A DNA stretch of 64,000 bases, from NCBI GenBank assembly GCA_002049455.2, contig KV918788.1, positions 372,001-436,000 of the forward strand. Reading direction: 5' to 3'. A program made the position numbers and the translations under genes. The notes below the pieces were generated by a model that was not told where the DNA came from, did not search any database, and saw nothing but the letters and a program-made list of their open reading frames with translations. This stretch comes from Porphyra umbilicalis. Taxonomy: Eukaryota > Rhodophyta > Bangiophyceae > Bangiales > Bangiaceae. Of this stretch, positions 18,213 through 31,406 are shown in pieces. The stretch's first letter is position 1; each line of letters starts with the position of its first letter.

Positions 18213-18302
<90 letters not shown>

Positions 18303-19114: not shown

Positions 19115-20171
19115 GGCGCGTCGACGGAGCGGCGCGCGACGGACGGGCAAGGGTGGCGGGCGCGTGGCGCGTGTTGCCCAACCGACCGATCCGTCGAGGG
19201 GCCCGTCCAGTAAAGGCAGCTTGCACACCACGAGTGGTGTCGGGAACAAGGGGCCGAGCGGCGGGGAGTGCAGAGCACTGCCCACCCTGTGCCAACTTCC
19301 CGCCCCGCCACCGGCCGGCCGACGCGGTCGGGCCGTCACCGGCCGCGGCCGACCGGTCGGTCGGCGGCGGCGCCTCGAGGCAGCGGCCGCACGTGGATTG
19401 CCGTCATTGCTCCAGCGCAAGGGGGAGGGCAGGTGGGTCAAGCGGCGCGCCGACGCGGGCCAAGTCATCGCCGCGGCCCGCGGTCGGCGCGACCGACAGC
19501 TGTCGGGCGCGGCACAGCCGCGGGCGGCCGCCCGCGGGTGTGTGCGTCCGACCAGTGGCGGTCGCGGCGGTCGTGGTTGCTTCGCTGCCGCACTCGTGGA
19601 CTGTGGCAACACTCAAACTACTCAATCACATGGTCCGCATCCATTACATCGTCATGTGCCCCCATCTGCCATCATGGTCCCATTTACAGCGCTTCACGGC
19701 CACGAGGATGTCAGACCCCTTTCGCAGTTCCTTTGGTCGAATGCGCCGACAGTACAGCGCCGTGGTCACCCAGCGCGGCTTCCTTACAGCACCGCATCCG
19801 ACCATCGACAGTGGCGGGCCCACGTGCATCCCGATCTGCCGCATGCCCGGCCCGTATCTCCCCCCTGCGATTTCACCGCGGCCGCCACAATATTGGGCAG
19901 GGCCGCCGCCATATTGCGCGGGGCCCACAGTCGCTACAGGTGCCTACAGGGCAGTCCCAAGCGGACCCTGGCCGCATGGTTTATTACGGATACGAGCTTG
20001 GCCCGGCTGTCGGCTCCCCGCCACAGGCCGCTTCAGGGTCACTCTCCAATCAATCCACTGAGATACTACAAGGATATCGTGGGGTGGCGGTTCTGCGTCC
20101 TGTCGCGTGTTCAGTATTCTGACCAATGACCGCGCGCCTACACCCTTCGATTTTAGCGCCTGCGGCGCCCC
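19115..20171. other. Intergenic region between the WDR54-like gene and the KDZ element
   Basis: It holds the promoter side of the WDR54-like gene. A 33-nt sequence at 19,715-19,747 recurs inverted at 30,847-30,879. Open frames here have no recognisable domain. Confidence 0.45.
19715..19747 (+). repeat. 33-nt repeat, inverted partner at 30,847-30,879
   Basis: It begins ACCCCTTTCGCAGTTCC and matches the reverse complement of 30,847-30,879 at 32 of 33 positions. It lies outside the long inverted repeat of the KDZ element, 424 bp from it on this side and 140 bp on the other. It may mark older or true outer ends of the element. Confidence 0.7.
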
Positions 20172-20822
20172 GCCGATCAGGACAGTCGGCTGCAGTCCGG
20201 CTCTTTTGGGCGCCACCGTCGCCGATCGGCACCCCTCTGCACCCCCCCCGCACGCCCCAAGGGGGGGAATCTGGGCGGTCGCCCACCCGTCTGCCCGCCC
20301 GCACCAACCGCCACCCCTCTGCACCCCCCCGCCGGGGGGGGATCTGGGCGGTCGCGCACCCATCCGCCCGCGCCCGCACCGACCGCCACCCCTCTGCACC
20401 CCCCCCACGGGGGGGGATCTGGGCGGTCGCCCACCCGTCTGCACGCCCGCACCAACCGCCACCCCTCTGCACCCCCCCCCACGCGGGGGGATCTGGGCGG
20501 TCGCCCACCCGTCCGCCCGCCCGCGCCCGCCGCCGTCGTCGGCCCCGTCGTCGTCGTCCGCGCCGCCGCCGTCGGCGGTGCTCCGCCCCCGCCGGCACGT
20601 CCGCCGGCACCGCCGCTGCCGCCGCGCTGCATGGCGGTCGCCCCCGCTCTCCCCGCCCCCCACACGCCGTCGACCGCCGTGCTGTGTGCGTGGGTCCGCG
20701 GGGGTGCTCGGCCACCGTCGGCGCTCCTCCATCCCCGCCGGCACGCCCACCGGCGCGCCTACCGGCACCACGGCCGGCTCCCCCCGCCGCACCGCGGTCG
20801 CGCCCCCTTCCCCCCCCGGCAC
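20172..20822 (+). repeat. Left long inverted repeat of the KDZ element
   Basis: It starts GATCAGGACAGTCGGCTGCAG and is a close inverted copy of 30,065-30,706. It includes four tandem units of about 75 bp at 20,230-20,525, then a GC-rich unique part up to about 20,822. Confidence 0.8.
20230..20525 (+). repeat. Tandem repeat, 4 x about 75 bp, inside the left inverted repeat
   Basis: Units begin CACCCCTCTGCACC at 20,230, 20,312, 20,387 and 20,460. Each has a C run, a G run and then ATCTGGGCGGTCGC, so each can fold into a C/G hairpin. The same array occurs inverted at about 30,393-30,665. Confidence 0.85.
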
Positions 20823-21016
20823 CGCGCCATTTGCCGGCGCGCCGGGACCGTGCCGGTAATCGGTGATGGCATTTCTGTTGCTGCATCTCTTTTTTAGTCA
20901 CCCATCCCTGCTCGCCCCCCCACCCACCCACCTTCTCGGCTCTTCCCCTCTCGCAACGGCTGCGTTCGTGTGCATGTGGAGCATTGGAGGGAGTTTTTGT
21001 GGATGGACGGCTTGCC

Positions 21017-24000
21017 ATGGGGGAGGCTTGCTGCGTGGAGGATCTTGACGCGGTTTGTGGGGAGGCACAGGATGGGGAGGGCGTCGACGTGCCGTACTTT
21101 GCGGCTCTCGGCGCGGAGGCGCTTGGGTTCTACCCGCCAGCGGAGCTGTTGCAAGCTCTGCTGCAGCACCGTGGCGCGGGCTTGAACGTGCGCGCCGAGC
21201 CGATGGTAGGGACGCGCGGTCCCGACGGTACTCGGGCAGCTTCTCCCGACCCGCTTCCATCGGGCGCTTCCCGGGCTCGGTCGCGGGGGGTGGGCGCAGC
21301 GCAACAGGCGTTCGACGTGGAGGGGCGGGCGGCATTCGTTGCTGCCCTTTCGTGCCAGCTGCTGGATGCTCTACTTGTCGGGCTCGACCTGGTGCTGCCG
21401 GACGTCGAGCTGATGGGACGCAAGGGCCCGGTCATCGTGCCGGTGCCCGGGGGACGGGCCGTGTTTGTGCGGAGCGCCACCGAGGCCCCTTACGTGGTTT
21501 GGGCGGCGGCCACCAAGACGAGCGTCTGCACGTTTTGCTCGTGTGGGACGGCGAGCAAGGACGAGAACGTCGGTGCGCGCGTCCGATCGAGCAAGTCCTC
21601 TACGTGCATGCACGCCGAGGCCTATTCTCAGGCGCTGCAGCAAGCCGTCAAGCATTTTCTTTGTAGCACCACCCGGGCCTTGCTGAGGCTCTATCCCGCC
21701 ATCGACAACTTCTCGGTCAACGCGCTGCACGTCGACACCTTCATGATGCAGCCGCTCCCCGACGGCGCGGCGATCCATGTGGTCGGGTACAACCACATCT
21801 GGTGCATCGTGCACACGCCTGGGGCGCGCACGCGCAAGACCCGGCCCGTGTGCCAGCACGTGCCGTGTAGGACGCGGAACAGTCGCTGCCTTCACTCTTT
21901 TGCCGTCAAGCCACCGATTGGCGGCTACGGCGGCTTCAACAACCCGGCCAAAGAGGGAGCGGAAAACAAAGGCGACGACGACGGCGGCGCTGCGAGCGAG
22001 AACAGCGACCAGAACGGTGGCGCTGAAGGTGAGGCACGGACGGCCCCGCCGCCGGCTGCTTCCACTGCTCCACGGCGGCGGCGCCCAGCTGCTCACGCGG
22101 CCAAGAAAAAGGGCCAAGAGCGTGTCTATCTGGACACAGACTACCGGCGACGGGCACGCAACCTGCTGCCGTGTGCGTCGGAGACACGTGTTTGCCTCGT
22201 CTGGGACGGCGTCGCGCGTGGGACCCCGCTGCCGGCGGACGTGGGTGAGGATCTATACGAGTTGAAGTGTCACAAGTGCGGTACGGCGGCGGGCGTCCTG
22301 GGACCGGCCGTCCTCGGCGACCTGTACACGCTGAGCGGGCCGACCAAGATCCGCACCCGACAGTGGCTGTGCCCAGACAAGGAGTGCGCCGAGATTGTCC
22401 GGTTCGACGGCTCAGACTACGGGCTGTTTGCCTACAACGCCGAGACGATCTACACGCGCACGCTCCTCGATGTCATCCTGTTTACGATTATCTCCACCAA
22501 GAGCAGCATCTCGGCGGCGACGGCGGTCTCGGCCTTCAACCTCCACTGCAGCGGGGCGGTCCACGCCAACGACTCGACGCAAACGCGGCAGGAGTTGTCG
22601 TACGCGACCGACCAATACTCGCGCACCCTCATCGTGCCGCGGTCGTTGTACCGGTGCGTCGACTGCTACCACTGCAGCGAGACGCCGTACGCGGCGGTCG
22701 TCGCCGACGGCCAGACCATCGGCATCTTCCGAGAGGCATCGTTCCCGTTTGAGAAGGACACAATCAACGTGCCGACAATTCCTATCTCAATCAACGACGC
22801 GTGCGCCGCGTTCGACCCCAAGGTGCGGTTGTGCGTGCGGCAGCGCCTCAAGGCTGGCTACTCAGCCGAGGTGACGTTCAACAAGGCCGAGCAAAAGGCG
22901 CTGTCAACCTTTGCGTCGCTGAGCGACGATGCACCCGCTCTCGGCGTCCACACCGACGCGGAGCACCCCAAGAAGGCCGGCTCGTGGGCGGCCAGCATCT
23001 TCTGGTGCTCTTTTTTCGCCACCACTGCCGAGGCGCAAGGCGGGAACGATGACGAGGAGCTGACGGACGCCTCGAGGTCTCCACCGGGGTCGCCGCCGCC
23101 CCCCAAGGCTTTGCTCTCGCCGTCCGTCCCCCCCCCTGCCATCAATAACACGTCGTCAACATTTAAGCCAACGCTGCGAGGTGGGGGCGTGGCGGATGAC
23201 GCGAATGGAGCGGTGCAGAGCACGGCCGGCTTTCGCTTTTGTAAGGTAATCCCCGAGGCCATTGGAGGGGATGACGTGCTGCCGATTGTGCGTCGGGAGC
23301 GGTGGTGCATCCTATTTGATTTTTTTTCGACCTTCGTTGCCGAGCCGGTCATCGGCATTTTTTCGGGGTGCAACGTAGACGAGCTGACGGAGCTCAGCCA
23401 AGCGTTGATTGACGGCAAGAAGCAGGAGCAGTGGAACGAGAACACCACGGGCATCCAGTCGCTGCACGTCGTTTGGCCGGCGCTCGACCTGCTGGCCGAC
23501 AGCATGGACGACGACGTGGAGCTCTCCCGTGCGATGGGCGAGCTGATCCTGTTTGCGGTGCACACGGACCTCCACATGGAGGCCCTGTGGCGCTGTCGTA
23601 TGAACGCCGAGGCGCTCCGCTTCGAGGCGGACTGGACCGATACCGACGCGGCCAAGTTCAAGGAGTGGCAGCTGCGCCAGCCGGCGCCGGCAGAGCCGCG
23701 TTTGCCATCTGGCCTCGTGTCCAAGGCGGCGTCGGCCGGCAGGGCAGACGACCAAGCTGCTGAGATCAGGTCGGGCGTGGTCATGCCCGACCTGGACCAA
23801 GTGCGCCCGCACCCGACGGACAACGTGGCGGCGGCGGCGGCGCGCGCCGCCCGTGACAAGGAGAAGCAGACCAACCCCACCAAGAAGACGAAGCGCAAAC
23901 GGGCGGATATGGAGAACGGCGGCTTGGGCGACGACGACTGCCGGCACGCCTTCATCACCCACAATGTCTTCACGCCTGGCGTCGTGTCTTACCTCTGCCC

Positions 24001-24508
24001 GTGCGGGGTGCTCATCGGGTTCGAGGTCCTCGAAACCGCCGAGAGCCCGGCGGGCATCGTGGCTGCCTTGGCGGCGCGCTTCCCCCGCTTGCCCAAGACG
24101 GTGTATTTTGACACCGCCTGTCAGTCCTCCCGCAATGCTACCCGCCGAATGCCGTGGCTTGTGCGGCTGTCCGAGACGTCGTGGGCGCTCGACCGCTTCC
24201 ACGCGGTCGCTCACAAGTGCTCTCCCTTGTTTGATGCCAACAACTACCCCGAGCGGTCGGGCCTCCACAAGACGTCGGCGGCCGAAAACCGCCATTCACT
24301 CAACAAGCCGCTGAAGTCGCACCTAACCTACTTGGGGCAAGACCGCTTCGTCGTCCAAATGCGGTTGATTGGGGCCATCAACAACCTGCTCATCTTGTAC
24401 CGACGTACAATAGGCAAGTCAGACGTGCGTCATCGCCCCCTGCCGTCCTTTTTCCATTCTCACTTGGTGTCTCAGTGCGAGCGTGTGGTGTGTGCATGTC
24501 GTCAGTAA
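21017..24508 (+). CDS. KDZ transposase, SWIM and zinc-cluster containing
   Basis: A large transposase of the KDZ class, 1,163 aa from the ATG at 21017. The frame is open further upstream, so an extra 5' exon is possible. Near the N-terminus is a SWIM-type CxC...CxH zinc site (C174, C176, C197, H199), then a second cluster CQHVPCRTRNSRCLH. A Zn-ribbon-like unit follows (CHKCG ... CPDKEC). The RNase-H-like core shows CVDCYHC then VVADGQTIG (D564), VYFDTAC (D1032), ALDRFHAVAH (D1059) and SAAENRH (E1090), the KDZ pattern. A 450-residue insertion between the first and second acidic residue contains Gly/Pro-rich and basic linkers (KKTKRKR, nuclear-signal-like). No internal stop occurs over 3.5 kb, suggesting recent activity. 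The end after NNLLILYRR may be altered by a small terminal intron. Confidence 0.85.
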   Translation: MGEACCVEDLDAVCGEAQDGEGVDVPYFAALGAEALGFYPPAELLQALLQHRGAGLNVRAEPMVGTRGPDGTRAASPDPLPSGASRARSRGVGAAQQAFDVEGRAAFVAALSCQLLDALLVGLDLVLPDVELMGRKGPVIVPVPGGRAVFVRSATEAPYVVWAAATKTSVCTFCSCGTASKDENVGARVRSSKSSTCMHAEAYSQALQQAVKHFLCSTTRALLRLYPAIDNFSVNALHVDTFMMQPLPDGAAIHVVGYNHIWCIVHTPGARTRKTRPVCQHVPCRTRNSRCLHSFAVKPPIGGYGGFNNPAKEGAENKGDDDGGAASENSDQNGGAEGEARTAPPPAASTAPRRRRPAAHAAKKKGQERVYLDTDYRRRARNLLPCASETRVCLVWDGVARGTPLPADVGEDLYELKCHKCGTAAGVLGPAVLGDLYTLSGPTKIRTRQWLCPDKECAEIVRFDGSDYGLFAYNAETIYTRTLLDVILFTIISTKSSISAATAVSAFNLHCSGAVHANDSTQTRQELSYATDQYSRTLIVPRSLYRCVDCYHCSETPYAAVVADGQTIGIFREASFPFEKDTINVPTIPISINDACAAFDPKVRLCVRQRLKAGYSAEVTFNKAEQKALSTFASLSDDAPALGVHTDAEHPKKAGSWAASIFWCSFFATTAEAQGGNDDEELTDASRSPPGSPPPPKALLSPSVPPPAINNTSSTFKPTLRGGGVADDANGAVQSTAGFRFCKVIPEAIGGDDVLPIVRRERWCILFDFFSTFVAEPVIGIFSGCNVDELTELSQALIDGKKQEQWNENTTGIQSLHVVWPALDLLADSMDDDVELSRAMGELILFAVHTDLHMEALWRCRMNAEALRFEADWTDTDAAKFKEWQLRQPAPAEPRLPSGLVSKAASAGRADDQAAEIRSGVVMPDLDQVRPHPTDNVAAAAARAARDKEKQTNPTKKTKRKRADMENGGLGDDDCRHAFITHNVFTPGVVSYLCPCGVLIGFEVLETAESPAGIVAALAARFPRLPKTVYFDTACQSSRNATRRMPWLVRLSETSWALDRFHAVAHKCSPLFDANNYPERSGLHKTSAAENRHSLNKPLKSHLTYLGQDRFVVQMRLIGAINNLLILYRRTIGKSDVRHRPLPSFFHSHLVSQCERVVCACRQ

Positions 24509-27039
24509 ACCTGTTTCCTTGTCACATCCTCTCCTCTATGGTACCATCGACAGCTTCACTGTACCCGTCGATACCTGGCCCGCGTCCGTTGCCCTTAGAA
24601 GAATCAGCAGGCTCCCCACTAGTATACATCCCTTTGCAGAAAGTCAACGGTAGCCTCTGTTGGTGACAACAGCCGGGCGTGCGCGTCCGTGCGGCCGGCG
24701 TCGCTGTTGTAGCCGCTGCGGCCGCCGTCGCTGCCAGCTGGGCATTGCACCGCCGCCACCAGCCCCAACTGGACCGCTTCCCCGCCCCTCTCGACGCAGC
24801 AACGCCGCTGCTCACAGCGGCGACGATGGCAGCCATGCTGTTCAGTGCCAGTAGGGCCGCCACTGGACAAAAAGATTGAGTGGGGCGGGGGGGGAGGGCA
24901 ATACGGCCCATCGCGTGACAGCGGCTGCGGGAGCAGCCGTCGCCGCCGCTTCACCACAAACTGCCCGATACTCTCGTCGTCGCCGCCTCGCACCGCACCC
25001 AGGACGTGCTCTGCCCTACTGATGGCGCCACTTACGCATATCGAAAGACTGGTGACTACGGGCAGCCAGGCCAAACCAGGGCGCGGCCCTCCCCTGCTCA
25101 CGTGTTGGATGCCCGCTGAGTACTACCACCCGTAGCCACTGCCATCATACATTGCCATGCACCGTCCCACGGCCGTTACCTGTTTCCCGGGCCAACATAT
25201 GGACCGCGTCCACTCTGGCGGTTGTCTCCCAACCACAACCCCCCCACAGCCGCTCGCCACTTTCACTCTGGTGAGCTCCACCGCCCCTGCGCTTCGGTTC
25301 CTCCCCATAAATCACTGTGCCATACCACGGCTGCTCGTGGCGCGCTGGATTGCGCAGAAAGGGGTACCAAAAGGGAGACGAGGGAACGCCTTTTACCGGA
25401 CAGGTTCAGGCCGGGTGTCTCAGTGACCCTTTCAGACAGTATGGAAGACGCCACTTTCTTTCTAACCCGCACCGAGGGGGAAGAACTGCGCTGCGAAGCT
25501 CACCACAGATGGGCAAGCGCACATTCGACTGTATTGCTTCTATGCGTGGCACTTGGCATGACATACACGAGTAGCAGCCCCCCCCACCTGCCCCAGCGTC
25601 CCATCCAGTCCCTATCGCCAGACGGACACCACACCAGTCTACCATAGAAAGAAAACCGGCCGCCTCCCATCCATTTACTCTACAGATTCCACACAAAGCC
25701 TTTCCCGCCGAAGCCCCAGCGTCTGTTGTCAAAGAGAGTTGGTAGGGGCCGCATGTGGCGGATCTCATGGTCATCCTACGGCGTGCCACAGTGGTCCCCT
25801 GGGTGCGGGGGCCAGCCGCTCCGCCGGGACACAGCCAGCAGCCCGCGGGAGCAGGACCATTGACGGCGCCTGGAGCAGCGGCACTGTGGACGTCTCGTGC
25901 GAGCAATGCGGGCGGGACAAGCGCGGTCCGGCTGCGCAGCCAGGGAGCGCAGCCAGAGCGGCGGGTGCATAGCCGGCGAGGAGCGGCCCCACACAGCAGC
26001 AAGCCGCCGTTGTGGGAACGCCCAACAGACCAACACGGGCGGGTCCAGCACCGCCCAACACGAGTCATGCTTGCCGCCTCTTGGGCGTGCAAATGGTGAG
26101 CATCAATGACTGAACTTTCGCCAGACGAATTTATCAAATACACACCGTAATTGACAAGCTCCCGAACCGCGACCCCCCTCAGCACCCTTTCCAACGCGGA
26201 CACCGTGAAGAATGTCCGATTCAAATATGATTTTTGACATTTTATATGGTTTAGATATGGATTAGATATGACTCTGTTACAGAAGCTTCAGTTTTAATAA
26301 TATTTTCACGTAATACGATGCGAAAGCACAGCTGTTGAGCAGAGGCGGCTCGCGCCCACATCGCCTGATCCACCGGATTTGGGCCACGATTCCGCCTTGT
26401 TAAAACGGCCGCATGTGAGCATGGACGGTGCATTGGATCTGCCACTCCATTTCGCTGCCATATGTCGTCTCTTTCGCGATTCTTCTGTACGGGTATATTT
26501 TCCGAAAGGATGTCGGTCGTTGTGTCGGTTGACAAACTGGTATTCTCTCGTTCTGTATTCATGTTGTCGGATGGGCGCTGTGCAGCTGCCTGACACGGGG
26601 CCCGTCGAGCGTTTACGGATCTCATTTGGGTCTCTCGAAAGTAGAAGACGCATCGTTTTCGATTTGGTTTGGGTTGGTACTTTACGACAATCGAGTGTTG
26701 CCATGGCCGTTGTGTCCATATCCCTCCCCACTGGAGTGCCTCCACTGCAGTTTCTCCACCGCAGCAGCGCCCCAATGCCGCCGCCGGCGTGGCCGCTATC
26801 TCTGCCGTTGTGTTCCTCACGTGCGGCAGCGGCTGGGGTGGATGGGGGGGGGATGGGCAATTGGTCCGTGCGGGACTGATTGCGACGGCGATAGCGGCAA
26901 TGGGCAGCGACGGGGGCTGTACCATCAGCCCGCGCCGCCAGGGGGTGGGCGCCGTGCTGGCGTCACTGCGAGCTGGCCTACTCTCTTTGTCTCTTTGCGC
27001 GAGTGTGCAGGAAGTGTATTCGAGTAGTGTGGTTTACTG
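24509..27039. other. Non-coding middle of the KDZ element
   Basis: The 2.5 kb between the two convergent genes has no supported ORF. It includes AT-richer stretches (26,100-26,330, 26,480-26,700). It could hold the 3' ends of both transcripts or remnants of captured sequence. Confidence 0.5.
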
Positions 27040-29775
27040 TTAGCTCTCCATGGCGTCGGCGCCGCCTAAAGCAAACGACCGGTCAGCGGCAGCCCGTGCT
27101 GCACGCTCCTCCCGGGCCTCCTGCTGGGCAACCCCGTCACGCACAACGCTGGCAGCCATTTCTAGACGCACGGCACTCGCATCTCCCGCCTGCACCTTCG
27201 ACTTCTCCTCACGTAAAGTGTGCCAAACAAAGGAGAAAGCGTACGCCCCACAGCTGGTTGAGTCGGTCTGCGAAGGAGCCTTGATTTTTTTGTGCGACCA
27301 GCTTTTCTTTGCCCCCTTGTCTTGCTCGCCCTCGCCCTCGCCCCCCACCGACCCAGCCACCCTCGCCTCCTCAATCGACTTGCTCATCGCCGCCTCGTCA
27401 AAGAGCACGCGCAACCGCTTGCCCATAGCCTTGACGCGCACCACCGCCTCGGCAACATCAGGACGCAGCGTTGCAAAGTGCTGTCCCGAGTCGTACAGCG
27501 TCACCGTCTTGCTCGGCAGGTGGACGGCAAAGGCGACCCAGTGCGAGTTGTCAATGTTGCATACGCCGGCCAGCTGCTCGACAATGCCCGCCAACCGGAA
27601 GGCCTTTTGGGCGGCCGCGTCAACGGCGGCCGCTACGGCAGCGGCGTGGGTGGGGCCCCGCGGCGGCTGCAGCAAGGAAACGAAGAAGGAGCACGGCAAG
27701 GCGTACGACGTTGGCTTGTTTTTCTTCAGCCACCGTCGAAGAATGGTCTGGTTGACCGCCAGAAAGTCGTCCGACATCCAGACGTCGCCGAGGTTGGCGA
27801 CGAGCCGGTTGGCCGTCAGCCCCGCGTCCTCCTCCGCCGCGTCCTCCGGCTGAGCGTCCGTGCGCCAGACCGTCGCGTTCGGGTTGCTCTTGAGCACGAC
27901 CTGCATCACCTCCGTGCCCAGCTCGCCGGTCGTCGACTCCTTGACCCCGTAGAAGGTAGAGACCCGTGAGTTGTACAGGACGGCCGCCTCCCGTACCCAT
28001 GCGACAACGCCGCGGAGGGCCTGCAGCCGCTCAGCAGCCAGGTGGAGCTCGCCCATGGCGACGAGCGATGCCATGGACACACGCACCGTGTCGCCCGACT
28101 CAAGCGCCTTGAACTTTGCGGTGATCTTGCACTCGTCGTCGACGTCGACCTCACCGCCAACCCTCATTGCCGCCGCCTTCTCCATCAGCTGCTTTCGCGC
28201 CGAGCGCGCGACCTTGTCGTCAAGCACACACTCCAAGAGCGTTTGCGACTTGGTGAAGGCCGACCAGTCGCTCACCGCCACCGTCTCAATCACAATCTCG
28301 TCGTCGACGACAAACACGACGGGAGGGCACCAGTTGGTGGCCAGCGAAAAAAAGGTGTGGTCCGCCAACAGCGCCGGCTCGGCGTGTAGTGGCAAGCACA
28401 CCACGTCCTCCGATGCGTCGAGTATCGGCAGCTCCAGATCCACCGCGCTCCGACGTGCTTGACCTTTCGGCTTCTTAGCAGAGGGCTGCGCGGTTGCGTC
28501 GGCGCTCCTCTTGAGCGACGCACGAGCGGCCGCCGCCTGTGCCTTGGCGAGGCGATCAGCGGCAGCAGCCTCTCTTCCGGCGGCACCGGCTGCACGACGA
28601 GCGGCCATGCGCGCAGCGGCCAGAGTAGACATGTCGGCGCCCGGCGCGCCATTGGCGGGGCTAGGGGACCCGGTGGGGGACCGGTACGGCGGTGTCGACG
28701 CCGTGGAAGGTGTGCGGGGCGTGCCGGGGGCCAACCCGAAGCCGTCCGTCAATCGGTGATCGTTAATTGTCAAGCCCGCCACGGCCTCTGACGACACGGA
28801 GAAAACGGACGGGTCCAGCTTGACGCCGAGCATTGCAAGACGGTCACAGATGGCAACCCTGACACCACGCTCCTTGTCAAAGAGTAGAAGCAGCACCGCC
28901 ACGACCAGGTTGAAGTCGGGCGTCTTGGAAGTGCCAATCTCCACCAGGGTGACCATCGCCTCCTCGACGTTGTCCACGTCCCGCGTCCGCTCGCCCGTCG
29001 GCAGGTGCCGTCGCTGCACGGCGACAGGGAACGGGAAGTGCATGCACCTCACGGTGCCACCGACGTCCGCCGATGCCCTCGTGTTGCCCATATCGACCGG
29101 CCACCATGGCAGCTTGCCTTGGATGAATGCTCGGCACGACACGCCGTACTTGTGGAGCAACGCGTTGCGCGCCACGGTGACCGTCTCGCGGACGGGACCG
29201 ACCCAGCCCTTTTGAACAGCTGTGAAGAGCGCCTCCATGACCCAGATGCCGGCTTCACTGGGAAAGTGGATGTCCGGCCGCTTGAAAAAAGCAAAGGTTG
29301 GCTCGAGCACGGGAGGCGACAGACCCACGGCGGCGGCGGGAGGAGCATCAGCGGCATGGGGACGAGCACCGGGGGCAGGTAGAGGAGCGTCGGCGGCAGG
29401 GGGAGGAGCACCAGCCGCGTCTCCTTCTGGATCGAAGGCGAGAGCTTGTTGGACCGCGTCTTCCGTAGAACCCCGCGGTGCGACGTCGGCGGTAGCATCA
29501 GCGAAGGCGCTCGCCACCAAGGAATCACCGTCACCGTGCGCCGTAGAGCGGTCCTCGTCCTCCCGGGGGGCCGCAGGTACACAGCCCCTCTCACGCAACG
29601 ACCGCCGAAAAAGTCCGGAGGTAGTTGTCATCGACAGCTCGGAGTGAATGTGGGTGTAGACCGTTTGGATCACACGCTTGGCGTCCTCGTGCGCCGAGAG
29701 CGCCGCGTCGTACAGGACGACGAAATACGCCTTGCCCGTCGCCTTGGATACGCCGACAGGTGGAAGTGACAGCAT
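27040..29775 (-). CDS. Ulp1/C48-type SUMO protease-like protein of the KDZ element
   Basis: 911 aa from the ATG at 29775; the frame opens a little further upstream with GTG. The C-terminal third is a Ulp1 cysteine protease domain: NSHWVAFAVHL (H745), TLYDSG (D762), SQTDSTSCGAYAF (Q836, C842), a complete catalytic set. Ulp1 proteases remove or process SUMO-type modifiers. The N-terminal two thirds lack a known domain. They include a Pro/Ala-rich part, a WPVDMGNTRASADVGG segment and basic, Ala-rich helices with nuclear-signal-like KRSADATAQPSAKKPKG. The gene lies inside the KDZ element, 0.3 kb from the right inverted repeat and convergent with the transposase, so it is best read as an element-encoded accessory protein. 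Its target is unknown. Confidence 0.85.
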   Translation of the reverse strand: MLSLPPVGVSKATGKAYFVVLYDAALSAHEDAKRVIQTVYTHIHSELSMTTTSGLFRRSLRERGCVPAAPREDEDRSTAHGDGDSLVASAFADATADVAPRGSTEDAVQQALAFDPEGDAAGAPPPAADAPLPAPGARPHAADAPPAAAVGLSPPVLEPTFAFFKRPDIHFPSEAGIWVMEALFTAVQKGWVGPVRETVTVARNALLHKYGVSCRAFIQGKLPWWPVDMGNTRASADVGGTVRCMHFPFPVAVQRRHLPTGERTRDVDNVEEAMVTLVEIGTSKTPDFNLVVAVLLLLFDKERGVRVAICDRLAMLGVKLDPSVFSVSSEAVAGLTINDHRLTDGFGLAPGTPRTPSTASTPPYRSPTGSPSPANGAPGADMSTLAAARMAARRAAGAAGREAAAADRLAKAQAAAARASLKRSADATAQPSAKKPKGQARRSAVDLELPILDASEDVVCLPLHAEPALLADHTFFSLATNWCPPVVFVVDDEIVIETVAVSDWSAFTKSQTLLECVLDDKVARSARKQLMEKAAAMRVGGEVDVDDECKITAKFKALESGDTVRVSMASLVAMGELHLAAERLQALRGVVAWVREAAVLYNSRVSTFYGVKESTTGELGTEVMQVVLKSNPNATVWRTDAQPEDAAEEDAGLTANRLVANLGDVWMSDDFLAVNQTILRRWLKKNKPTSYALPCSFFVSLLQPPRGPTHAAAVAAAVDAAAQKAFRLAGIVEQLAGVCNIDNSHWVAFAVHLPSKTVTLYDSGQHFATLRPDVAEAVVRVKAMGKRLRVLFDEAAMSKSIEEARVAGSVGGEGEGEQDKGAKKSWSHKKIKAPSQTDSTSCGAYAFSFVWHTLREEKSKVQAGDASAVRLEMAASVVRDGVAQQEAREERAARAAADRSFALGGADAMES

Positions 29776-30064
29776 AGCGACGGGCACCGCTCCTCCAGGT
29801 CGACCAAGGTCTGAACGAGCACGCTAACAAGTCCATTGACGTCGGAAGGGAGCGAGGAAACACCCAGCAGCACGCGTAATAGCGCCCGCAGCCTAGTAGC
29901 CCGCAAAGTCGACTGGGGGACCGGCGCCATGCGACCAATGCAGAGCGGCAGCGCCCGTCGCAAACGGAGAGGCGGGGAGAGCCGCCGAGCGTCGCAAACC
30001 ACAAGGGCACATGGACAACCGGCGGCAACGGCAACGGTGTGCACGCAACTCGCGGAGCCGACGG

Positions 30065-30706
30065 GGCGGTGGGGCGGGGGGAGGGGGAGCGACCTCGATG
30101 CGGCGGGGGGAGCCGACCGTTGTGCCGGTAGGCGCGCCGGTGGGCGTGCCGGCGGGGATGGAGGAGCGCCGACGGTGGCCGAGCACCCCCGCGGACCCAC
30201 GCACGCAGCACGGCGGTCGACGGCGTGTGGGGGGCGGGGAGAGCGGGGGCGACCGCCGTGCAGCGCGGCGGCAGCGGCGGTGCCGGCGGACGTGCCGGCG
30301 GGGGCGGAGCACCGCCGACGGCGGCGGCGCGGACGACGACGACGGGGCCGACGACGGCGGCGGGCGCGGGCGGGCGGACGGGTGGGCGACCGCCCAGATC
30401 CCCCCGCGTGGGGGGGGTACAGAGGGGTGGCGGTCGATGCGGGCGGGCGGATGGGTGCGCGACCGCCCAGATCCCCCCCCGTGGGGGGGGGTGCAGAGGG
30501 GTGGCGGTCGGTGCGGGCGGGCGGATGGGTGTGCGACCGCCCAGATCCCCCCCCGTGGGGGGGGGTGCAGAGGGGTGGCGGGTGGTGCGGGCGGGCAGAC
30601 GTGTGGGCGACCGCCCAGATCCCCCGCCGTGGGGGAGGGGTGCAGAGGGGTGCCGATCGGCGACGGTGGCGCCCAAGAGAGCGGGACTGCAGTCGACTGT
30701 CCTGAT
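30065..30706 (-). repeat. Right long inverted repeat of the KDZ element
   Basis: An inverted copy of 20,172-20,822, ending CTGCAGTCGACTGTCCTGATC. It includes the inverted tandem array of four about 70-75-bp units at about 30,393-30,665. Similarity stops at about 30,065 inside and about 30,706 outside. Confidence 0.8.
30393..30665 (-). repeat. Tandem repeat, 4 x about 70-75 bp, inside the right inverted repeat
   Basis: Each unit contains GCGACCGCCCAGATCCCCCC, a G run, and TGCAGAGGGGTGGCGG. These are mirror copies of the left array. Units differ in C/G-run length and by point changes. Confidence 0.85.
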
Positions 30707-31406
30707 CTGTCGGAGACCCAGAAACCCCACGGACCCAGATTTGTGCTCATCCGCCACCATCTGGCTGGGACCCTGGCCCGGCCCGGCGTGCCCGGGCCGG
30801 GCCGGAGGCCCGGCCGGACGCAGCTCTCATCGTCGCTAGAGAACCAGGCGCATCCGACCAAAGGAACTGCGAAAGGGGTCCTCCTGGTCGACGGCCACTG
30901 CCGGCGGCGTCGCCGATCGGTGCACGCCCCCGCGCGCCGCTCGGCGGGCGACTGGAGGGCCCGCTTTAGCGAAACTGCCCCCCCCGGCGGTGGGTGCGGT
31001 GGGGGGTGCGGCAGCTCAGACCGCCACCCTCCTCGCCCGCCCCGCGTGGGGAGCGTGACGCGCCGCCGACCCCGCGAGCGAGCCGCGCTGCTGGCGCGGC
31101 GGCCGCGCCGCAGCACTCCACGGCGGACCCGCCACGGCGCGCGGAAAGTACAGCAGGGTGCTCGCCCGCGCTCGCTCGCCCGACACCCCCCCCCCCCCAC
31201 GCCCCGAACAGCGGGCGTGGTTGTGCTGCCAAGGCACCCCCACGTTTGGCAGCGGCTGGCACTGCCGCTGGTGCGCGTGGGCGGGGGTGAACCCCCGTCA
31301 CCCGTCGCCCGCAGTGGGAAAGAAAAGGGGACTGAGCGCCGCGGCGGTGACGGGCGTGGCGCACCCAGGCGTCCCTCGTGAGCCGCGCCCGTCCAAGCTG
31401 GCAGAT
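30707..31406. other. Right flank of the KDZ element
   Basis: No gene is supported. A 12-bp-arm hairpin (GGCCCGGCCCGG / CCGGGCCGGGCC, 30,775-30,803) and the 33-nt inverted repeat partner (30,847-30,879) lie here. The rest is GC-rich sequence with G and C runs. Confidence 0.45.
30847..30879 (-). repeat. 33-nt repeat, inverted partner of 19,715-19,747
   Basis: Reads GGCGCATCCGACCAAAGG on the plus strand at its left. One mismatch to the reverse complement of the left copy. Confidence 0.7.

Follow-up and report, generated by a model that had tools for sequence, protein, structure and literature searches.

Two genes face each other in a 64,000-nucleotide stretch of the red alga Porphyra umbilicalis genome (GenBank assembly GCA_002049455.2, contig KV918788.1, labelled C28, positions 372,001-436,000). 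This stretch is called the window hereafter, and positions are given in its numbering. Elsewhere in the genome, twelve matches to phycobilisome linkers, four on C665 (probably the plastid) and eight on other contigs, fit a red alga or some other eukaryote with phycobilisomes. One gene, on the + strand at 21,017-24,508, is an open frame for a putative KDZ-type transposase of 1,163 amino acids (aa). The other, on the - strand at 27,040-29,775, encodes an Ulp1-like cysteine protease, a type associated with the small ubiquitin-like modifier (SUMO), and is open over 911 aa in this copy (ATG at 29,775, stop at 27,040). The locus raises the question of whether the two genes make up a single mobile unit and, if so, what a protease would do in a transposon. 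The analysis shows a genuine two-gene transposable element, whose genes have been inherited jointly across six families, and shows that this element moved recently, to three sites. An earlier note had read the transposase as intact and the two genes as transcribed towards each other, and both points hold.

Ends and copies of the element

In the 83.8 Mb of genome searched, three full-length copies of the element were found (in the window and at the places labelled C187 and C419), which are 99.67-99.75% identical over about 11.19 kb. When they are aligned, the likeness runs to 19,704 on one side and to 30,890 on the other and is lost at once beyond. Since the three copies diverge exactly at these bases, the complete element spans 19,704-30,890 (11,187 bp). 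It is flanked by a perfect 8-bp target-site duplication, ACGGCCAC, at 19,696-19,703 on the left and 30,891-30,898 on the right. Each sister copy has a perfect 8-bp duplication of its own, CGCTGGCC and GGTGGGTC, different from copy to copy. A diverged family, C117, begins and ends at bases corresponding to the termini of the window element; its element (104,573-115,724) has ends that resemble those of the window at 71-72% and carries the perfect 8-bp duplication AAAGGTGG. Perfect duplications were thus present at all four insertions whose ends were located, namely the three copies and C117; the related elements C4, C31, C222 and C392 stand outside this count. Long inverted repeats, each of about 960 bp (89%), are also present in C4.

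Ten bp inside each end lies a 34-bp inverted repeat, at 19,714-19,747 on the + strand and 30,847-30,880 on the - strand, with 33 of 34 positions matching between left and right. Its 26-bp core, searched with up to three mismatches, occurs genome-wide only at the six ends of the three copies, and the reversed control gave no match. Because the duplications are perfect at 4/4 located insertions and the terminal motif is confined to these six ends, chance is excluded as their origin.

Further inside are two long arms, at 20,175-20,828 (+) and 30,063-30,707 (-), built of tandem units of about 74 bp whose common core is found at 20341, 20416 and 20490 on the left and at 30386, 30459, 30533 and 30607 on the right. 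The arms are the longest inverted repeat (614 of 656 columns identical), and the earlier note, which had described repeats of about 640 bp, took them as the ends of an element at 20,172-30,706, an extent that the three copies and the duplications displace. The repeats are real; as termini they are refuted. They are subterminal, 0.47 kb (left) and 0.18 kb (right) inside the element ends, and the outer 471 and 183 bp are common to all three copies, with the perfect duplications outside them. Together with the corresponding ends of C117, this leaves practically no room for the idea that the outer DNA is host sequence, for which the rank of the arms as longest inverted repeat would speak. The arm units match many other places of the genome at 68-82%, as GC-rich repeat units only (40 of 128 candidates scored).

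Aligning the three copies shows 53 variable columns, of which the arms hold 21, the transposase and protease frames 10 each and other parts 12. The 21 columns in the arms fall within about 1.3 kb; these stretches may change faster, or their GC-rich repeats may be poorly assembled. Both frames are open in one copy of the three, C419; the transposase is also open in the window and broken in C187, and the protease is also open in C187. Copies of the element ends lacking one of the genes, which would have pointed away from a two-gene unit, were not found with the terminal pattern (up to three mismatches) or with the 471-bp left end (7/7 candidates scored). Likewise, neither short non-autonomous derivatives nor solo ends were detected by the terminal pattern, the left end or the arms (40 of 128 arm candidates scored). 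Viral contigs held no relatives of the element in a search that may omit records from the window's own genome.

Joint inheritance of the two genes

Related transposases were found at no fewer than 38 loci (at least; 47 matches merged, with the best 40 of 588 first-look candidates scored). These comprise the three copies, five loci at about 55-61% identity (80% in the last part of C117) and others at lower identity. A genome search with the protease, in which 42/42 candidates were scored, recovered all eight loci with the closest transposases (the three copies and five diverged families), plus one 24-bit match on C141. At these eight loci the protease is always downstream of the transposase and convergent with it, so that the pair has been kept in the same orientation across transposases of 55-61% identity, rising to 80% over the last part of C117. 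In C117 the duplication and the ends lie outside both genes, and therefore the pair is enclosed in one element. The proposal that the pair forms one mobile unit is thereby upheld, both genes lying within a duplication-flanked element. A host gene at this site as the origin of the protease was also considered and rejected: the genome contains no close host counterpart among the 42/42 scored candidates, the protease being beside the transposase at 8/8 loci. The single match elsewhere, at C141:46,409-50,227, is weak (24 bits), has no window-type transposase detected nearby and is also a place matched by PF02902.

The ratio of non-synonymous to synonymous change (dN/dS) was estimated by a Nei-Gojobori count using only codons in stretches of at least 40% local identity, a restriction that biases dN downwards. 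For the protease it was 0.21/0.87 = 0.25 between C31 and C222, 0.30/0.98 = 0.31 between the window and C117, and 0.46/1.30 = 0.35 between the window and C31; for the transposase it was 0.11-0.24 in five comparisons. Both genes look constrained, the protease less so.

The transposase gene

The + strand protein contains a CxC-x20-CxH motif (C174-H199), a CxC4-like region at residues 418-504, and D564, D1032 and E1090, which, reading by eye, we take to be the catalytic D-D-E. These three residues, as well as D1059 and the CxC-CxH motif, are invariant in 5/5 aligned transposases, and D564, D1032 and E1090 are also aligned in the loci C162 and C181. The Pfam CxC4 profile matches the window protein at an E-value of 1.3e-5 and 25.5 bits, just below the cut-off of 26.9, and the C4 transposase at 26.0 bits. 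No match to the transposase was obtained in PDB by sequence.

The KDZ identity had been proposed together with a profile search as its check, and it stands by homology to KDZ-positive proteins and not by the KDZ profile PF18758 itself. In C145, a relative about 35% identical to the window transposase, PF18758 gives a weak match (18.1 bits, E 0.0023). In C162 it reaches 24.3 bits against the protein and 27.4 bits when the genome is searched, with a cut-off of 26.6. The window transposase matches C162 at E 2e-37 (28% identity over 405 aa), and hhalign aligns the window-family transposases with C162 at a probability of 100 over 654 columns. Since the C162 protein carries both KDZ and the Ulp1-type domain Peptidase_C48 (PF02902; hereafter C48), we therefore call the + strand gene KDZ-type, a label that comes through this homology.

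The protease gene

In the window protease the set of catalytic residues that the earlier note had listed is confirmed within a C48 domain scoring above the cut-off (33.6 bits, E 4.6e-8, cut-off 20.7): H745 (27,543), D762 (27,492), Q836 (27,270) and C842 (27,252), all in 27,250-27,543 on the - strand. Three of the four members of a protease alignment (A2) match C48 at E 0.1 or better. The H, D and C are present in 6/6 families, that is the window and five diverged ones, being spread over broken frames in C117 and C4, and four of these families (window, C31, C222 and C117) keep the Q at its usual spacing. C31 and C222 each encode their protease in one frame, of 1,186 and 1,209 aa respectively, in which a long insert rich in Ala and Lys separates D from Q. 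Beyond its catalytic part the protease is mostly without a Pfam match, and NCBIfam gave nothing meaningful.

The 911-aa frame, which the earlier note had described as intact, is indeed open, but it lacks the natural N-terminus. A conserved N-terminus lies upstream in a frame at 29,672-29,930 (-), with its start codon at 29,930, and is conserved in the diverged families; the homology of relatives to the 911-aa frame begins at residue 7 or 8. For these reasons ATG 29,775 and the first seven residues are not the natural start. In the sister copies C187 and C419 the protease reads 963 aa straight through the break point. In the window a length difference of one base near 29,752 puts the N-terminus out of frame with the rest, and mutation and sequencing error cannot be told apart as its cause.

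The spacer between the two stop codons (24,509-27,039, 2.5 kb) contains no frame longer than 272 aa, and none was assigned. In the left flank, at 18,213-18,296, a long GCC trinucleotide tract lies inside a long open frame.

Ulp1 domains beside other KDZ-type transposases

PF02902 matches 114 places in this genome, of which 54 adjoin a KDZ-type transposase place that we found and 60 do not; the profile misses diverged C48 forms. For the branch of C162 at least 51 loci were recovered (61 of 262 candidates scored). At 37 of these 51 loci a C48 place lies within 4 kb, in all 37 cases downstream on the same strand; 2000 trials of random uniform placement gave 0.7 such loci on average and never more than 6. 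This count shows linkage, not 37 separate events, related loci not being independent. In C162 itself (96,001-101,500) a single 1,072-aa frame has C48 at its C-terminal end, where the domain scores 92.7 bits. PF18758 and C48 have the same open-frame length at 14 of the 20 loci holding both, which suggests that those 14 loci also hold both domains in one frame, C162 being the locus where the single frame was read. C162-type loci thus have the look of a large KDZ population with fused or closely linked Ulp1, some in long open frames.

A different arrangement is found in the window's own branch. Of its 38 loci, 13 have C48 upstream on the same strand, three are the convergent copies and 22 have none by PF02902; five of those 22 are the diverged convergent families caught by the window protease, leaving 17 without. 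At C181 (22,001-29,500) a first frame covers transposase residues 146-667 and then C48, and a second frame covers residues 756-1163. The C48 domain is therefore nested between the first and the second putative catalytic D, where the window protein has its linker (residues ~668-755). C181 is the one locus of this kind that was read; at twelve others C48 likewise lies upstream on the transposase strand. The transposases C145 and C122, each about 35% identical to that of the window, have no C48 place within 8 kb and apparently represent a branch without a protease.

One genome thus contains three placements of Ulp1: as a C-terminal fusion, nested within the transposase and as a separate convergent gene. 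Compared with each other, the C162 and C181 Ulp1 domains score 82 bits, whereas the window domain matches that of C181 at only 28 bits; the window protease may have split off long ago or may have been acquired separately.

Possible role of the protease

The reading that we favour, and consider probable though clearly short of established, is that of an autonomous-type KDZ cut-and-paste transposon with two convergent genes, in which an Ulp1-type isopeptidase counters a restraint on transposition. Going by the anatomy of the element, the transposase would act at its ends by cut-and-paste, binding the 34-bp repeats, the repeat arrays of the subterminal arms or both, and cutting through a D-D-E site of the RNase H type. 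The isopeptidase would work in trans, either on the transposase or at the element itself. Its probable task is to strip a SUMO-like tag from a factor that holds the element in check: the tag, SUMO or a SUMO/ubiquitin-like one, might be removed from the transposase, from silencing chromatin or from repair proteins, and transposition would otherwise be held back by it. The separate gene would then stand in for the Ulp1 domain that, in other KDZ branches of this genome, is part of the transposase gene. Retention of the protease speaks for a role, as does the occurrence of such domains at different positions in KDZ branches; the varied pairing suggests that protease activity matters to this type of transposase.

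Several observations weigh against this reading. PF18758 gave no match to the window transposase up to an E-value of 1. The C48 match is limited to profile positions 90-207 of 217, and the PDB search by sequence returned one chance-like protease match (E 0.65) and, with the protease profile, none; these results therefore do not prove specificity for SUMO and leave the N-terminal half of the fold unrecognised. C392 and C4 lack a Q at the usual distance from the C and have only a pair of Q residues further away. To the frame break of the window protease are added broken frames in C117, C4 and C392 (one gene or both) and in the transposase of one sister copy. Finally, 14 of the 51 loci of the C162 branch have no C48 place within 4 kb and the 17 of 38 noted above in the window's branch show no protease; because branches without one exist, the protease is not needed by all KDZ elements.

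The partial C48 match, the lack of a SENP/Ulp match in the PDB set and the displaced Q of C392 and C4 are also what would be expected of a C48-like domain with another specificity (ubiquitin or NEDD8) or of a non-enzymatic binding module, and related members of the clan do cleave ubiquitin. We regard this as rather unlikely, given that all six families retain H, D and C. It is harder still to see the protease as a captured host enzyme that hitch-hikes with no role in transposition, a reading to which we give very little credence: the gene is kept at 8/8 loci in one orientation across such diverged transposases, its dN/dS is well below 1 and no close host counterpart was found in the genome. 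Capture of Ulp1 with a function not known does occur in plant Mutator-like elements (PMC13317346, PMC2836005), and to that extent there is a precedent for mere cargo.

The arms provide the ground for another alternative, in which the protease protein would bind the subterminal units and locally remove SUMO-dependent silencing, acting on expression of the element and not on the transposition reaction. The ~74-bp units, whose shared core recurs at three sites on the left and four on the right, would suit such binding, and the part of the protease outside the catalytic region, mostly without Pfam match, could be a targeting region. There is an analogy in VANC proteins, which recognise tandemly repeated motifs in the non-coding parts of their own family (PMC5735166), and VANC genes bearing Ulp1 exist in VANDAL elements (PMC13317346). 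On the other hand, the arm repeats may be mere binding sites of the transposase, and we hold this alternative to be possible but unlikely. A bolder version is more doubtful yet: KDZ transposons of one genome would have placed an Ulp1 protease in three positions, the convergent form being perhaps separately acquired and now a dedicated factor directed to the subterminal arrays of its own element, where it would lift SUMO-based silencing, in parallel to VANC anti-silencing but outside land plants.

Relation to known elements and significance

The pairing of KDZ with a SUMO protease is not new, the Zisupton superfamily being named for its zinc finger and SUMO protease. Together with the frequency of KDZ and Ulp1 in the same genome (37/51 loci), this makes a capture less surprising. 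Zisupton, as reportedly described by Bohne et al. in 2012, is about 11 kb long and has subterminal inverted repeats and an Ulp1 SUMO-protease domain; in fish the Ulp1 domain is said to form the C-terminus of one splice form of a gene with many exons. The window element is like Zisupton (of platyfish and others) in its KDZ-type transposase with cysteine-rich motifs and in its subterminal inverted repeats (34 bp and the arms of ~640 bp). It differs in that its Ulp1 is encoded by a gene of its own on the opposite strand and not, as reported for Zisupton, within the transposase gene, and in that its arms are ~640 bp of GC-rich repeats. Within the genome, C162 shares with the window a homologous transposase core and a C48 domain in an element gene, but its C48 is fused C-terminally and matches the profile far more strongly; C181 shares the two transposase halves (27% and 38% identical) and differs in having C48 between them.

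The 8-bp target duplication is a further likeness to Zisupton (PMC12730594), but it does not single Zisupton out because an element of the Dileera lineage also has 8 bp, Kyakuja having 7 bp (PMC12730594). One isoform of the fish element gene contains an F-box (PMC12062965). Ginger1 and Mutator-like elements (KIU/VANDAL) are DNA transposons that carry Ulp1 as well, but belong to other transposase superfamilies (PMC2836005, PMC13317346). Fungal KDZ elements carrying TET/JBP also have an accessory chromatin-related enzyme, which is however a dioxygenase and not a protease (PMC12730594). KDZ elements occur in green algae (PMC8226300), giant KDZ, EnSpm and Sola-1 families of brown algae often have additional genes (PMC12477816), and Zisupton elements have been described in nematodes (PMC9297572).

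In the open-licence literature we found nothing joining KDZ transposons with Ulp1, Zisupton with a SUMO protease or Zisupton with Porphyra. Within the literature searched, the separate convergent protease gene and the three arrangements in one genome appear to be new. Ulp1 or other ubiquitin-like proteases ride on transposons of different superfamilies. The element of the window is compact and has its protease as a gene of its own, so that, unlike in the fused forms, the two activities are separable in one experiment, and the three arrangements found in one genome make up a natural comparison.

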